From NCBI GenBank assembly GCA_029237505.1, contig JARBAW010000015.1:1-34633 (forward strand): DNA of 34,633 nt. The letters run 5' to 3'. The stretch comes from Nitrososphaerales archaeon. GTDB taxonomy: Archaea; Thermoproteota; Nitrososphaeria; Nitrososphaerales; Nitrososphaeraceae. Of the stretch, positions 2,378 to 25,631 are shown one piece after another. Each line of letters starts with the position of its first letter. Position 1 is the stretch's first letter. The notes beneath the pieces were generated by a model. That model ran no database searches and was not told where the DNA came from. It worked only from the letters and a program-made list of their open reading frames with translations. The position numbers and the translations under genes were made by a program.

Positions 2378-4510
2378 ATGAATTCGCATGATGAGACGAG
2401 TGAGTCATCTACTAACAGGAGTGTGTTTCTATCACCAAGGTCAATTGCAATCATAGGCGCTTCCGACAAACCAGGTATCGGTAGGGCAATTTTTACAAAT
2501 ATTAAAAATGGCTATAAAGGGAAAATCTATCCAGTTAGTCCTACTAATGAATATGTATCCGGAATCAAGGCGTACAAAAGTGTGCTTGACATACCAGACG
2601 ATATTGATTTAGCCGTTGTTGCCACCCCAAACAAGATCGTTCCAAAAGTAATGGAAGAAGTAGGAATGAAAAAAATTCAGGGTTCCATAATTGTTTCGGC
2701 AGGATTCAAAGAAGTTAATGAGCAGGGAGCGGCTCTTGAAAAGGAGGTTGCTGCCATCTGTAAGAAATACGGGACTAGAGTTATTGGCCCAAATTGCCTG
2801 GGTATAATGAGTTTGTCAAAAGAAAACATGATGAATTCTACATTTCTAAAAATTACTCCTAAACATGGGAATATTGCACTCGTTTCACAAAGTGGAGCTA
2901 TCTGTGCTGCTACGGTTGAGGATGCCATGGGACAGGGTATAGGATTCTCAAAGGTAATTAGTATGGGAAACAAGATAGATGTAGATGAAAACGATGTTTT
3001 AGAATTATTATGTCATGATCCAGAGACTTCTGTAATTATCATGTACCTTGAAGACATCCATGATGGTCGAAGGTTCATGGAAATAGGAAGAAAAACAACC
3101 AAGGAATACAAGAAGCCAATAGTAGTCATAAAATCTGGCAGAACTCCGGAGGGCGCAAAGGCAGCTATGTCTCACACTGGAGCCTTGATGGGAGCTGATG
3201 AGGTGTATGATGCATTATTTTTGCAAAGTGGTGTAATAAGGGTAGATTCAATGCAAGAACTCTTTGACCTTGCTACTGCATTTTCAAAGCAACCAATTCC
3301 ACAAAACGACAAGGGTACGGTAATTGTATCAAATGCGGGTGGACCTGCTATAATTTCCACAGATGCGTGTTCAAAATATGGGATGAAACTAGCTGATATT
3401 AGTGCATCTAGAGAAGAAATAGCGAAAGTTATACCAGCGCACGGTTCTGCGAGAAACCCTGTAGACATTGTGGGTGATGCCGACTTTAATCGATTTGAAA
3501 AGGTCCTCAATGAAGTCGTTTCTAATCCAAACGTTGGTTCAATTGTTACTATGTGTACTCCTTCAGCTACTTTGGATTATAATGATCTTGCAAGAACAAT
3601 AGTTAAGACAACAACCAATTCCGGAAGAACTTCACTTGCTGCACTTATGGGTCTTGCAGAAGGAACCGAAAATAAGCAAATCCTTTCGGATGGTGGAATT
3701 CCATACTTTCCATATGCTGAACCAGCAATAAGGACCCTTAAAGCAATGTATGATTTTTCTAATTGGATCGCGGAAAAAGAAATTGAAATTAAAAAATTTA
3801 ATGTCGATAAGGAAAAAGTCAAACAAATTTTTGATACTGTAAGAAAGGATGGAAGAAAAAATCTTTTAGAAGAAGAGGGATACAAAGTTCTTAATTCATA
3901 TGGCTTTCCGAGGCCAAAGAGTTACCTTTGTACAAATGAGGAAGAATGTGTAAAGAGAGCAGAAGAAATCGGTTATCCTGTCGTTATGAAAATAGTATCG
4001 CAAGACATAATCCACAAATCAGACGCCGGGGGGGTAAAGGTAGGTATAAAGAATAAGCAACAAGTTTCATCCTCTTTCAGTGAAATAATTAATAACGCAA
4101 AGAATTACAAAAAGGACGCAAATATTAAAGGAGTACTAGTCCAACAGATGATTGAATCTGCTAGAGAAACAATTCTTGGAGCAAAACACGATAAGCTTTT
4201 TGGACCTTTGATAATGTTTGGCCTTGGAGGAATCTACGTAGAAGCTCTCAAAGATGTGATATTCAGACTAGCTCCTATTAATGAATATGAAGCATTAAAG
4301 ATGGTAGAATCAATCAAGACATACAAGATATTGAAAGGGATTAGAGGGGAACCTCCATCTGACATAAAAACACTGGTCGAATGTCTCCTACGCTTATCTC
4401 AACTGGTTACAGATTTTCCTGAGATAGCAGAATTCGATATGAATCCACTATTGGTACTTGAGGAAGGCAAAGGGGCAATTGCAGTTGATGTAAGAATAGG
4501 GCTTGCATAA
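2378..4510 (+). CDS. Acyl-CoA synthetase, ADP-forming (fused alpha-beta)
   Basis: A 710-residue NDP-forming acyl-CoA synthetase with both subunits fused. The order is: CoA-binding Rossmann domain (about 12-145, IGASDKPGIG), succinyl-CoA-synthetase-like domains with the phosphorylated His at 266 in MSHTGALMG, then a C-terminal ATP-grasp domain (about 480-705, with KIVSQDIIHKSDAGGV). These enzymes make an acyl-CoA from the acid, CoA and ATP, giving ADP. In ammonia-oxidising thaumarchaea, paralogues activate 3-hydroxypropionate and 4-hydroxybutyrate in the carbon-fixation cycle. This is a strong candidate for one of those, but I cannot tell which from sequence alone; acetate or another acid is possible. 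It appears to be a single-gene unit with a TATA box about 28 nt before its ATG. Confidence 0.9.
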   Translation: MNSHDETSESSTNRSVFLSPRSIAIIGASDKPGIGRAIFTNIKNGYKGKIYPVSPTNEYVSGIKAYKSVLDIPDDIDLAVVATPNKIVPKVMEEVGMKKIQGSIIVSAGFKEVNEQGAALEKEVAAICKKYGTRVIGPNCLGIMSLSKENMMNSTFLKITPKHGNIALVSQSGAICAATVEDAMGQGIGFSKVISMGNKIDVDENDVLELLCHDPETSVIIMYLEDIHDGRRFMEIGRKTTKEYKKPIVVIKSGRTPEGAKAAMSHTGALMGADEVYDALFLQSGVIRVDSMQELFDLATAFSKQPIPQNDKGTVIVSNAGGPAIISTDACSKYGMKLADISASREEIAKVIPAHGSARNPVDIVGDADFNRFEKVLNEVVSNPNVGSIVTMCTPSATLDYNDLARTIVKTTTNSGRTSLAALMGLAEGTENKQILSDGGIPYFPYAEPAIRTLKAMYDFSNWIAEKEIEIKKFNVDKEKVKQIFDTVRKDGRKNLLEEEGYKVLNSYGFPRPKSYLCTNEEECVKRAEEIGYPVVMKIVSQDIIHKSDAGGVKVGIKNKQQVSSSFSEIINNAKNYKKDANIKGVLVQQMIESARETILGAKHDKLFGPLIMFGLGGIYVEALKDVIFRLAPINEYEALKMVESIKTYKILKGIRGEPPSDIKTLVECLLRLSQLVTDFPEIAEFDMNPLLVLEEGKGAIAVDVRIGLA

Positions 4511-17972: not shown

Positions 17973-20126
17973 TCATTCTTCGGGCAGCCTTGAAATTGTC
18001 AACAAATCTTCAATATTTTCTTCGCTAACCCCTTTCCTGGCCAATTCTCTTCTAAGTTTCTTCTTATCCTTAATCTTCTGAGGCACGTTTCGTGTATACT
18101 GGGTTATATAATCGATAAACTGAGGATCATCAATTGTAGCATTATTAAATTCTGTACTGGAATTTACTGTTAGGGATTCATAATTCGGATTTATTATGAT
18201 GGAGTTTGTTAGTTCTGTATGCTTGAGGTCGGCTCCACCTAAATCCACACCAACCAGTCTGGCTCCCCCAAGATTAGCACCCACTAACCTGGCTCCCCCA
18301 AGATTAGCACCCACTAACTTTGCACCTACCAAATGAGCATCTCTCAGATTAGCTCCCCAAAGACGAGTACTAACTAGATTAGCTCCCCAAAGACGGGCCC
18401 CAACCAAATCAGCTCCTCCTAAATTAGTGCCAACCAATCTGGCGCCACTTAAATTGGCACCCATCAAATCCGCGCCACTTAAATTGGCACCCATCAAATC
18501 CGCACCATCAATGTCACTGCCACTTAAATTGGCACCCATCAAATCCGCATCCCTAAGATCCGCATCCCTAAGATCCGCATCCCTAAGATCCGCATCCCTA
18601 AGATCCGCATCCCTAAGATCCGCATCCCTAAGATCCGCATCCCTAAGATCCGCTTCTCTCATAGATAGAATTTTAAATTCACTGGCTCTTTTATCATTGA
18701 ATTCATTGATCTTTCCACTTTGGAGTAACTTTATAGCTTCGTAGTTTATTGCTTTTCTATGTGTTCTGGTTGGTTCCACGGATGTTTCTATAGCGTGATG
18801 ATAGATATTCCAATCCCGTACGTTTTTCAAAGTATCTGAATTTTGTATTAGAAAATTCCACAAACCAGAATCCGTTTTAAAATCGCGTAACACTTTCCAC
18901 ACTTTTATGTCTCGTTCTTCTTTTTTTTCTTCATACAAATCCAAACTCTTTAGACGCGTTTCATCATCCATCTTCAGATACTTATCTAATTCCTTAAAGA
19001 AAGAATCATCTGATTTTACCAATATATTATAAAATTTGGTCCATCGCAAATGAATCGCTTGAATGATTAGTAATTCTTTTGCCTCAAAATTTTTCTTACC
19101 CGAAAAAATCAATTCTTTTGCCTCAAAATTTTTCTTACCCGAAAATATCTCATGCGCTACAAAAAAGTTATTCAAAAATCTTTTGATCTCTCTGGGATTA
19201 TTGTCAATTGCTATTGAAATTAGATCTATATTCTTTTCTATAAGGTCCCTAAATTTATCATGTATCATTCCCTTTTTTATTAAATCTTTGACCAGGTTAA
19301 CAATATCCTGATTACTCCATCTGGGTAAAGTAATCGGTATTTGAATCAACTTCTTAATAAAATGCTCTCCATCAATACTCGTCTTGCTATTTTCTATGTT
19401 GCTTAACTTGAAAATCATATCATGACTTAATCCAATGATATAAACAAAACCCTCAATATCATGGAATATTCTTATAAGTTCCAATATTTCAAGTGCCCTC
19501 TTCGGAGAACATTTATCCAAATCGTCTACGAATACAATAATCCTAAATGCAGGATTATCTAGGCGAAGATTTCTTATTTCTTTTTTGATTTCGTCCAATC
19601 CATCAAAATAAACCGTGTCTCTATCTAATTCTGCTATTAGTTGGATTTTTGAATTTAATTCCTTTTTGAAAGTATCAAGCATCTCATTTGAAATTTCATC
19701 CTCTTCTGATGCATACTTGGATATGATTGACGTAAGAATGTCTGGAGTCTTCTTGAGAAAATTTATTGCACTTGTTTCCAATTTCTGTTTTAATACTTCA
19801 AATTGTTTCTCAGTCGGTAACGCAAATGCTATGCTTTTTAGCAATGAAACAACAGGGAATTGTTCCTGTTTATAGCGCCAAGCTTCAAGAGTTACTCTAA
19901 CCAAATCTTTATCAGTTTGAAGGATTTTGTCTACAGCGTTTATCAAAGTGGTTTTCCCTGTCCCCCAATCACCAAAAATGCCGATTGTAAATTTCGGCTG
20001 TGAATTTCTAACTATGCTGGCTATCGCACTAGCGTATAAATTGAAATCAAGAATTGGATCATCGGCAATATCATCTGTTAAGATTAACCCTTTTTGAAAT
20101 ACTTCATCCTCTGAGGACAAAATCAC
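17973..20126 (-). CDS. KAP-family P-loop NTPase with pentapeptide-repeat domain
   Basis: A 717-residue protein. The KAP NTPase domain has Walker A GDWGTGKTT at 52-60 and Walker B IIVFVDDLDKC at 197-207, the DDLDxC form typical of KAP. A helical region follows to about 480, containing a 13-residue tandem duplication (IFSGKKNFEAKEL twice). A pentapeptide-repeat right-handed beta-helix spans about 486-635 (ADLRD, ANLSG, ARLVG units), followed by a 75-residue charged tail. No membrane helices are evident. KAP and pentapeptide proteins are linked to membrane-associated ATPase roles and to biological conflict; a defence or DNA-mimic role here is inference. The start is a GTG at 20126 with a TATA-like element at about 20150-20157. 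It is flanked by a 444-bp empty gap. Confidence 0.85.
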   Translation of the reverse strand: MILSSEDEVFQKGLILTDDIADDPILDFNLYASAIASIVRNSQPKFTIGIFGDWGTGKTTLINAVDKILQTDKDLVRVTLEAWRYKQEQFPVVSLLKSIAFALPTEKQFEVLKQKLETSAINFLKKTPDILTSIISKYASEEDEISNEMLDTFKKELNSKIQLIAELDRDTVYFDGLDEIKKEIRNLRLDNPAFRIIVFVDDLDKCSPKRALEILELIRIFHDIEGFVYIIGLSHDMIFKLSNIENSKTSIDGEHFIKKLIQIPITLPRWSNQDIVNLVKDLIKKGMIHDKFRDLIEKNIDLISIAIDNNPREIKRFLNNFFVAHEIFSGKKNFEAKELIFSGKKNFEAKELLIIQAIHLRWTKFYNILVKSDDSFFKELDKYLKMDDETRLKSLDLYEEKKEERDIKVWKVLRDFKTDSGLWNFLIQNSDTLKNVRDWNIYHHAIETSVEPTRTHRKAINYEAIKLLQSGKINEFNDKRASEFKILSMREADLRDADLRDADLRDADLRDADLRDADLRDADLRDADLMGANLSGSDIDGADLMGANLSGADLMGANLSGARLVGTNLGGADLVGARLWGANLVSTRLWGANLRDAHLVGAKLVGANLGGARLVGANLGGARLVGVDLGGADLKHTELTNSIIINPNYESLTVNSSTEFNNATIDDPQFIDYITQYTRNVPQKIKDKKKLRRELARKGVSEENIEDLLTISRLPEE
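18259..18548. repeat. 30-bp duplications inside the pentapeptide domain
   Basis: One 30-bp unit (starting ctggctcccccaag) is perfectly repeated at 18259-18288 and 18289-18318. A second (starting gccacttaaattggc) occurs at 18444-18473, 18474-18503 and 18519-18548, all identical. Thirty bases equal two pentapeptides, so the frame is kept. Identity at synonymous sites points to recent duplication. Confidence 0.9.
18544..18648. repeat. Seven perfect 15-bp tandem repeats
   Basis: The unit tccgcatccctaaga is repeated seven times without a mismatch. On the coding (minus) strand each copy encodes one ADLRD pentapeptide. The copy flanking it at 18649 diverges. Confidence 0.95.
19072..19149. repeat. 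39-bp tandem duplication in the KAP gene
   Basis: Two adjacent 39-bp copies (19072-19110 and 19111-19149) differ at one base. They encode IFSGKKNFEAKEL twice in the helical part of the protein. The frame is preserved. Confidence 0.95.
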
Positions 20127-23013: not shown

Positions 23014-24168
23014 TCATTTTAACCTAACTACTGGAAGTATCAATATGATAATAACCAAACCTCCTAACAACCATGCTATCTCATATCCCAAGCTGCTTAC
23101 TATTCTGGAAAAAAAGACTGGGACCCAGAAGACGCCAAATAATGAAAGACCATTTACGAAACTTACGGCAAGAGTCTGATATTGAGGTTGTGCCTTGTTG
23201 ATTTCTTTTGCTTTTGCGTATACTATTACAAACCCCGCAGATAAGAAAAATCCTGATATAAGGATCAATACTGTAATAGCATATAGTGAATCAGTTGCAA
23301 ATGCGGCCATGCTGCAGGCACTGATTATGCCAGAAATAAAGAGTAGTTTCCTTGCATTTCCAATCTTATCGTAAAGCTTCCCAAAAAACGGTGATGAGGC
23401 AAGGGCGACTATTAGATTTAGGCTTCCTATTAACCCTGCATCAATTGGATTAATTTTTAAGTGATCTACAAAGTAGAACACAGTAAAAGTCAAAATCATA
23501 CTCGATCCTGCTTGAAATCCCAACAATGTGATTCCAAGGATAATCAATGATTTGTTAAATAATGTCGAAAAAACATGAGATATCCTAATCCTAAACTCAT
23601 TGCTTATTTCATCGGCGGCTTTTAGTAATGTGCTTCTCAATAGAATGGCAGTTGATATTCCCAACCCACCACTTAAAACAAGTGATGATCTCCAACCTAA
23701 TTGTTCAGCCAGTATCACCCAGCCAAACAATCCTATTATTCCCCCCAAGGCATGGGCTGAATTTAGCAGTCCGATTCCCAGTCCTTCCGATTCCTTTCCT
23801 AAATATTTCGAAATTAGGATAACACTTGGTCCAAAAAAACATGCCATACCTAAACCAATTATAAACCTCAAAAGGGTTATTTGCGAAGTGTTACTGGCTA
23901 ATCCAGTTACTAATGCTCCCGTTGAGGCAATCATGATTCCGTATATGGCAATCTTTCTGGGACCATATTTTGCAGCGATGATTCCTGCAGGCACTTGAAA
24001 TAGACCTACACCGACAAGAAAGCTGGCACTTATTATTCCAAGCATAGCGATGTTTTCTTTAAAATCAGAAGCAACAAAGTAGAAGACAGAAGCCATGTTA
24101 AACCAATTGATTGTATATACTACTCTGGCAAGCATTAATGAAAGAGTCGCCGTTTTATTTGGCTTCAT
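23014..24168 (-). CDS. MFS transporter
   Basis: A 384-residue major-facilitator permease with about 12 helices. Motif A-like loops are present at both halves: PAGIIAAKYGPRK at about 60-72 and GKLYDKIGNARK at about 256-268. The central loop is short. It is close to the nitrate/cyanate-type or sugar-phosphate-type 'NarK-like' general pattern, but the substrate cannot be assigned. It ends the run of minus-strand genes and starts 55 nt from the stop of the cupredoxin-cyclase gene, so co-expression with it is possible. Confidence 0.85.
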   Translation of the reverse strand: MKPNKTATLSLMLARVVYTINWFNMASVFYFVASDFKENIAMLGIISASFLVGVGLFQVPAGIIAAKYGPRKIAIYGIMIASTGALVTGLASNTSQITLLRFIIGLGMACFFGPSVILISKYLGKESEGLGIGLLNSAHALGGIIGLFGWVILAEQLGWRSSLVLSGGLGISTAILLRSTLLKAADEISNEFRIRISHVFSTLFNKSLIILGITLLGFQAGSSMILTFTVFYFVDHLKINPIDAGLIGSLNLIVALASSPFFGKLYDKIGNARKLLFISGIISACSMAAFATDSLYAITVLILISGFFLSAGFVIVYAKAKEINKAQPQYQTLAVSFVNGLSLFGVFWVPVFFSRIVSSLGYEIAWLLGGLVIIILILPVVRLK

Positions 24169-24223: not shown

Positions 24224-25282
24224 CTAGTTTTGATCTATTACAAGATAATACTCGGTAATGTCTTCAAATGCTTTTATTTTTTCTTCTTTTATTTGTATAG
24301 TCTCCAAATTGAATTTTTGTTCAATCTTTTCCTTTGTAAATTGAGATATGGCAATTTGATCGCCCTCAGCTATTCCTTCCATCCTGCTTGCCAGATTTAC
24401 ATGAGTTCCTATCACAGTAAACTGATCCCTTTCTTGACTTCCCATGAGTCCAACTAAGACTGAACCAGTGTTAATACCGCATTTTATGTCGATACTTGTA
24501 TCAAAATTAGTAACCGTGCTCCATATATCCAACCAATTTTTCTTAAAAAACTGGAATGCCTTCTTAAGTTTTAGAGCAGCAATAATTGCATTCGATGCAC
24601 CAATTGAACCAGCTTCATCTGATTCCTTGAACCCGAAGTATGCCAGTATACCATCTCCAATGAATTTATCAATAATTCCACCATATTCATGTATGATTGG
24701 AACTGCCACGCCGAGATATTCATTGAGAAATACTGCAATGAGCTCTGGATGATCCTTAAAGACTTCGGTCAATTTTGAAAAATTACTGATATCCCAAAAA
24801 ACAATAGTCATTACCTTATTCTGGATTAGAGTTGCATGAGGGTCACTCAGATATTCGATAATGGCTGGATCTAGTTGTCTCTGAAGACGAGTTAATATTT
24901 TTTGATTTGCGTTGTCGGATACTGACAGGTTTAAGTCGTCCATGAACCTCGCCTTCTCATCTTCCGTCATTTGATCTTCGGGTTTGGGTAAAATCCCAAT
25001 AACACCTCTTTCAGTGGGATGCATGGTGCAGTAATACGGTATACTCTGTTGATTACTATCGATCTTAACGGTTGTAGATTCACCTGGCAGCATACTTCCC
25101 GTTTGAAAGAAAGGACTTGGCAAAGTAGAGTTTGCATCTCCCGAAGTCAAGTTATGTACCTTTGTATCTCGGTTGATCCAAGTTATTGATTCACCTTTGA
25201 CAATCTTGACAATCCTGGGTTCAAAGTACATGATTTCCTTAGTATTCTCTTTAAATTTGGGAATAACTACAAATTTTTTCAA
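24224..25282 (-). CDS. Cupredoxin-class III adenylyl cyclase fusion
   Basis: A 352-residue two-domain protein. Residues 1-98 form a plastocyanin-like cupredoxin with copper ligands H43, C85 and H88; the axial position is E91 (C-x2-H-x2-E instead of Met). A helical linker (about 105-155) leads to a class III nucleotide cyclase. That domain has metal Asp D164 and D210, base-selecting K206 and T293, and N296/R300 in GTHVNLASR, so it appears active as an ATP cyclase. There is no signal peptide or membrane helix, so the copper site would face the cytosol. The start is a TTG, with a stop codon directly upstream in frame. A TATA box is about 27 nt away. It probably couples copper or redox state to cAMP; this is inferred. 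Confidence 0.85.
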   Translation of the reverse strand: MKKFVVIPKFKENTKEIMYFEPRIVKIVKGESITWINRDTKVHNLTSGDANSTLPSPFFQTGSMLPGESTTVKIDSNQQSIPYYCTMHPTERGVIGILPKPEDQMTEDEKARFMDDLNLSVSDNANQKILTRLQRQLDPAIIEYLSDPHATLIQNKVMTIVFWDISNFSKLTEVFKDHPELIAVFLNEYLGVAVPIIHEYGGIIDKFIGDGILAYFGFKESDEAGSIGASNAIIAALKLKKAFQFFKKNWLDIWSTVTNFDTSIDIKCGINTGSVLVGLMGSQERDQFTVIGTHVNLASRMEGIAEGDQIAISQFTKEKIEQKFNLETIQIKEEKIKAFEDITEYYLVIDQN

Positions 25283-25305: not shown

Positions 25306-25313
25306 CATATAAC
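25306..25313 (-). promoter_or_regulatory. TATA box for the cupredoxin-cyclase
   Basis: GTTATATG on the minus strand is centred about 27 nt before the TTG at 25282. This supports the TTG start and a leaderless message. Confidence 0.55.
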
Positions 25314-25484: not shown

Positions 25485-25631
25485 ATGGAAGGAGTTCAAA
25501 AACTAAAATGTGGTTCCTGTGGAATTACATTCATGTCTGAAAATAATAGTCCACTTTGTCCTACATGTTCTGAAACTTCAAGTTCACATCATCATGGAGC
25601 AGAACATGGTTGTGGCTGTGGTGGTCACTAA
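25485..25631 (+). CDS. Cys/His-rich metal-binding micro-protein (48 aa)
   Basis: ATG 25485 to TAA 25629-25631 encodes 48 residues. A zinc ribbon (C9, C12, C25, C28) is followed by a metal-rich tail with HHH at 35-37, H41, C43, C45 and H48 (ending GCGCGGH). The ribbon resembles FmdB-like regulatory zinc ribbons; the tail looks like a soft-metal chelator. A TATA-like CATTAATTATGG (25454-25465) is about 26 nt upstream, and a T-run follows the stop. It is divergent from the cupredoxin-cyclase across about 200 nt. A role in copper, nickel or zinc handling is inferred. Confidence 0.7.
   Translation: MEGVQKLKCGSCGITFMSENNSPLCPTCSETSSSHHHGAEHGCGCGGH

Follow-up and report, generated by a model that had tools for sequence, protein, structure and literature searches.

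A cupredoxin domain joined to a class III nucleotide cyclase in soil Nitrososphaeraceae, probably a cytosolic sensor

The fusion gene and its surroundings

The DNA analysed here, called the window, is a stretch of 34,633 nucleotides from the genome of a Nitrososphaerales archaeon (family Nitrososphaeraceae; 1.74 Mb in 189 contigs, 97% complete) in which archaeal AmoA is encoded. On the minus strand of the window, positions 24224-25282 hold a coding sequence that starts with TTG at 25282, ends with TAG at 24224-24226 and specifies 352 amino acids, a length shared by the orthologues of the genus. A preliminary description had placed a cupredoxin fused to an intact class III cyclase at these coordinates, which are correct, and had left the minus strand unmentioned. 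The fusion itself is confirmed: a cupredoxin (residues 1-98, positions 24989-25282) is followed by a linker (residues 99-152, 24827-24988) and by an intact class III nucleotide cyclase (residues 153-352 approximately, 24227-24826). The residues named for the two halves, H43, C85 and H88 in the cupredoxin and D164, K206, D210, N296 and R300 in the cyclase, were all found at the positions given.

An in-frame TGA lies immediately 5' of the TTG, and this TGA-TTG junction is kept in 10 congeners. A TATA box (TTATAT, 25307-25312, minus strand) has its centre about 27 bases 5' of the TTG, at a spacing that is nearly fixed in ten congeners. Because this distance matches the spacing of about 27 bases of archaeal promoters, it suggests a leaderless transcript starting at the TTG or close to it. 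The fusion protein shows no evident signal peptide or membrane span, and no hydrophobic stretch was detected near its N-terminus: the maximum 19-residue mean hydropathy in the first 40 residues does not exceed 0.92 in the fusions, whereas six unfused cupredoxins have hydrophobic segments that score 1.7-2.5. That a misplaced start might mask a signal peptide was considered and rejected, as all ten congeners have the in-frame TGA directly before the TTG and the TATA box is suitably spaced. The earlier claim that a signal peptide is absent is supported by the same TGA and by the lack of an N-terminal hydrophobic segment. Since such a segment is absent and the TTG start is supported, the protein is predicted to be cytosolic; the export signal or membrane anchor of classical blue copper carriers was not found in it.

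Several other genes of the window were recorded. An MFS transporter gene (23014-24168, minus strand) follows the fusion gene after 55 bases on the same strand, in an order kept in congeners only; the clue to an operon that it offers was set aside, the context being unshared beyond the genus. Divergent from the fusion gene, positions 25485-25631 (plus strand) encode a 48-aa Cys/His-rich zinc-ribbon-like protein with the tail HHHGAEHGCGCGGH, which is kept in the genus at 81-88% and has a weak similarity to HypA (E 0.013, below the cut-off). At 17973-20126 (minus strand), a 717-aa protein combines the NTP-binding motif GDWGTGKTT with a long run of pentapeptide-like ADLRD repeats. The genes neighbouring the fusion are common only within the genus and the fusion extends beyond it, which suggests that the fusion protein acts as a unit.

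The cupredoxin domain and its predicted metal site

Pfam Copper-bind (PF00127) matches residues 15-90 with an E-value of 5.1e-7, above the curated cut-off. Modelled alone by AlphaFold from a shallow input of 21 alignment rows (pLDDT 91.7, pTM 0.83), the domain has eight strands arranged in the predicted structure as a Greek-key beta sandwich of the plastocyanin kind. A Foldseek search of the PDB with this model gave 468 matches at E <= 0.001, and the best 50 of 468 were cupredoxins or cupredoxin-domain enzymes. The top match was the purple cupredoxin Nmar1307 (5fc9; E 4.9e-10, TM 0.80/0.87), and amicyanins and plastocyanins ranked next. Whether residues 1-98 might be no cupredoxin had been set beforehand as a test of the description; run by structure prediction and fold search, the test upheld the cupredoxin.

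The first predicted copper ligand, H43 (codon at 25154-25156, minus strand), is invariant in 18 aligned fusions and likewise in the unfused cupredoxins compared. The loop C85-T-M-H88-P-T-E91-R-G93 (25004-25030, minus strand) contains four positions that are invariant in the fusions, C85, H88, E91 and G93. The invariant H43, C85 and H88 make up the putative equatorial His-Cys-His set of a type 1 copper site. E91, which is Glu in 18 of 18 aligned fusions, aligns with Met98 of amicyanin, and this alignment would place it at the axial position of the metal site, with Glu replacing the Met. Loops picked by regex from the loci examined (matches to the fusion plus the host's own genome, not a full census) carried Met at the axial position in 18/18 unfused cupredoxins and Glu in the cyclase-linked ones. 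The latter comprise 17 distinct loops, one of them from a frameshifted copy and one from a fusion that the regex had mislabelled as unfused. The cupredoxin call of the preliminary description stands, but that description had overlooked that the site departs from a standard blue-copper site, with an invariant Glu in place of the axial Met. The axial methionine of a classical blue copper electron carrier is missing, and this replacement shifts the balance from plastocyanin-type electron transfer towards ligand- or metal-sensing.

The same substitution bears on the identity of the metal. A site of two His, one Cys and one Glu would suit zinc well, and cells keep cytosolic free copper very low; every fusion compared has Glu where blue copper sites typically have Met, and the gene of a Cys/His-rich zinc-ribbon-like protein lies divergently beside the fusion gene in the genus. 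A sensor for zinc or another divalent ion, not copper, is nevertheless quite unlikely in our judgement, the nearest relatives by fold and by sequence being copper proteins and E91 being assigned to the metal site by alignment only.

The fold relatives raise a further version of a sensor, in which NO arising from ammonia oxidation would act on the Glu-substituted and possibly open copper site and would set the level of cytosolic cAMP. The fusion would then be an independent, haem-free, copper-based counterpart of soluble guanylyl cyclase. The Foldseek matches of the cupredoxin include nitrosocyanin, a red copper protein in which Glu is a ligand, and AmoA is encoded in the host genome. The closest solved fold relative, second by sequence, is Nmar1307, which is also without the axial Met and which is reported to oxidise NO to nitrite in a passage of PMC6790972 citing Hosseinzadeh 2016; NO is a key intermediate in ammonia-oxidising archaea (PMC6308003). 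Identity to Nmar1307 is, however, only 23%, the axial-position residue of that protein is Arg and not Glu, and chemistry does not follow from fold similarity. We regard control by NO as unlikely; it is a special case of a metal-site sensor, and its probability falls inside that of the general explanation.

The cyclase domain and the distribution of the fusion

Pfam Guanylate_cyc (PF00211) matches residues 158-347 of the minus-strand product (E 1.7e-18; 67.3 bits against a cut-off of 21.9). By phmmer, the cyclase matches CyaB and CyaC at E-values of about 2e-23 to 4e-23, and Foldseek groups it with CyaB (3r5g, E 1.5e-16) and CyaC; AlphaFold on the 18 fusions, a shallow input of 18 alignment rows, gave a mean pLDDT of 82.4. 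Among the catalytic residues, D164, K206, N296 and R300 are invariant in the aligned fusions, and D210 and T289 are at least 90% conserved. The metal Asp pair and the transition-state Asn and Arg of a class III cyclase are thus present. In CyaC, a Lys and Thr pair selects ATP; K206 and T289 align with these residues, as expected of a base-selecting pair of the adenylyl type. Combined, Pfam, AlphaFold and Foldseek agree on a cupredoxin and a cyclase, and the claim of an intact cyclase is borne out by the Guanylate_cyc score over the cut-off and by the catalytic residues that are kept. The host genome carries seven class III cyclase genes. No cNMP-binding domain was recognisable in the 97% complete genome with PF00027, a model that may miss a divergent or unrelated receptor. 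In L021, a paralogous fusion of Nitrosocosmicus, the second metal Asp, D210, is Gly, and this copy is possibly inactive or a partner subunit.

A search for the two-domain architecture in other thaumarchaea, proposed in the preliminary description, was run and found it in the genus and beyond. Within the genus, the fusion is present in 10 of 12 genomes, at 81-93% identity to the window protein; one of the two genomes without an intact fusion is only 59% complete and the other has a decayed copy. Outside the genus, it is present in at least three genera of the same family (g5, g9 and g10), down to 37-40% identity, and it was not found in other families when 300 genomes from the class and 398 from the phylum, two overlapping samples, were searched at strict E-values. 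Conservation of the fusion in soil Nitrososphaeraceae is accompanied by purifying selection on both halves: the median pairwise dN/dS is 0.065 in the cupredoxin and 0.073 in the cyclase, synonymous sites being close to saturation. A pseudogene was rejected on the basis of these ratios of about 0.07 in both halves, and a chance fusion through assembly error was rejected because this fusion occurs in genomes assembled by several different studies.

In a tree of the cyclase domain, several branches of which are weak, most fusions fall in one region. Because cupredoxin-less Nitrosocosmicus cyclases are nested among them, at least one loss of the cupredoxin is likely, in some Nitrosocosmicus relatives; a cupredoxin gene was looked for upstream of these cyclases and was not found. 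A second fused lineage stands apart in the same weakly resolved tree and consists of the longer fusions L039 (857-2572, 572 aa) and L041 (841-2553, 571 aa), with extra N- and C-terminal regions around the cupredoxin and the cyclase. At L080 (about 2990-4150) and L043, cupredoxin and cyclase are neighbouring separate frames with their order kept; these split pairs come from a Nitrosocosmicus bin and from genome G053, and sequencing error is possible for either. Their diverged loops escape the regex, that of L080 reading CKDHDE (C, H and an E kept) and that of L043 CKIHRRE. At L071, also in genome G053, the cupredoxin is decayed: the Cys and His ligands and the first half of the domain are lost, an internal stop is present, and the cyclase is kept.

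These losses bear on whether the cupredoxin might be a metal-free structural or docking module, with the cyclase under some other control such as that by bicarbonate in CyaC. The cyclase is CyaC-like, with Thr at the base-selecting position, and some relatives appear to have dispensed with the cupredoxin. The H, C, H and E residues are, on the other hand, unchanged across 18 fusions whose identity falls as low as 37%, which would be unlikely for such a scaffold, and we hold this explanation to be very improbable.

A candidate metal-site sensor and known systems

Between the two domains, the model places helices at residues 107-121, 125-133 and 139-145, with a low-confidence segment at 124-134. 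The pre-cyclase motif LDPAIIEYL of the linker aligns across the fusions and with a bacterial relative. This relative, the REC-cyclase L084 from a Candidatus Coatesbacteria bin, was the closest found in one pattern-limited scan of bacterial genome contigs, outside which bacterial fusions may exist. L084 and the window protein are 42% identical over the FDP/LDP helix and the cyclase; the N-terminal slot, which holds the cupredoxin in the window protein, is occupied in L084 by a response-regulator receiver domain (E 7.6e-14). By analogy, the receiver domain in this slot points to the cupredoxin as a sensor input, its natural reading. Such a role is favoured because the cupredoxin is conserved together with the cyclase and because a receiver domain fills its slot in L084.

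We lean, by a little, towards a cytosolic one-protein metal-site sensor that controls cAMP, with copper or redox state as the likeliest signal. The N-terminal cupredoxin would bind a metal, most likely copper, through H43, C85 and H88, with E91 axial. Copper loading, the redox state or a small molecule such as NO would act as the trigger at this site, the linker helices (107-145) would relay the signal to a class III cyclase acting as a homodimer, and the rate at which ATP is converted to cAMP would be altered. The nature of the signal (copper/redox, NO or another metal), copper occupancy, the homodimer, the cAMP product and the direction of regulation are what we infer. The absence of the cupredoxin in some Nitrosocosmicus relatives speaks against a sensor: some cyclases there appear to have lost it, so the input would be dispensable in some lineages. 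The decayed cupredoxin of L071 and the lack of a recognisable PF00027 domain in the host genome count against it as well, and the split pairs, in which cupredoxin and cyclase stay adjacent, count in its favour. Taken as a whole, the fusion probably serves as a sensor, so far undescribed, of a metal, of redox state or of nitric oxide.

Both halves belong to known families; their joining and the Glu site appear new to us. No published description of a cupredoxin-cyclase fusion, in archaea or elsewhere, was found in the literature searched, which left out most subscription journals, and almost nothing published was found there on cAMP signalling in soil ammonia oxidisers. The same literature yielded no work on NO with nitrosocyanin or with engineered azurin. 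In textbooks, cupredoxins carry electrons outside the cytoplasm. A conserved cytosolic cupredoxin that serves a cyclase as its sensor would, if true, be a new input class for second-messenger signalling, and its hosts are soil ammonia oxidisers that depend on copper enzymes and produce NO. As the fusion protein has no evident membrane span, control by copper, redox state or NO should be directly accessible in vitro.

Known systems resemble the fusion in one half or the other. The exported plastocyanin-like cupredoxins of the same genome (L054-L057 and L059) share the H, C, H ligands and the C-x-x-H-P loop; unlike the fusion, they have hydrophobic N-terminal or membrane segments, no cyclase and, in the four aligned, an axial Met. 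Nmar1307 of Nitrosopumilus maritimus comes from an archaeal ammonia oxidiser and likewise lacks the axial Met, but it is a single-domain protein with Arg at this position, whereas the two-domain fusion, 23% identical to it, has Glu. CyaB of Pseudomonas (3r5g) and CyaC of Spirulina platensis (1wc0) have in common with the fusion the catalytic fold, the Asp pair, the Lys/Thr pair and the Asn and Arg; we know of no cupredoxin input in either, other input domains being found instead. L084 shares the cyclase subfamily and the preceding helix, and its receiver domain replaces the cupredoxin. Soluble guanylyl cyclase, the haem NO receptor, also joins a class III cyclase to a sensor domain in the cytosol and is like the fusion by analogy only, its haem domain having a fold different from that of the cupredoxin.
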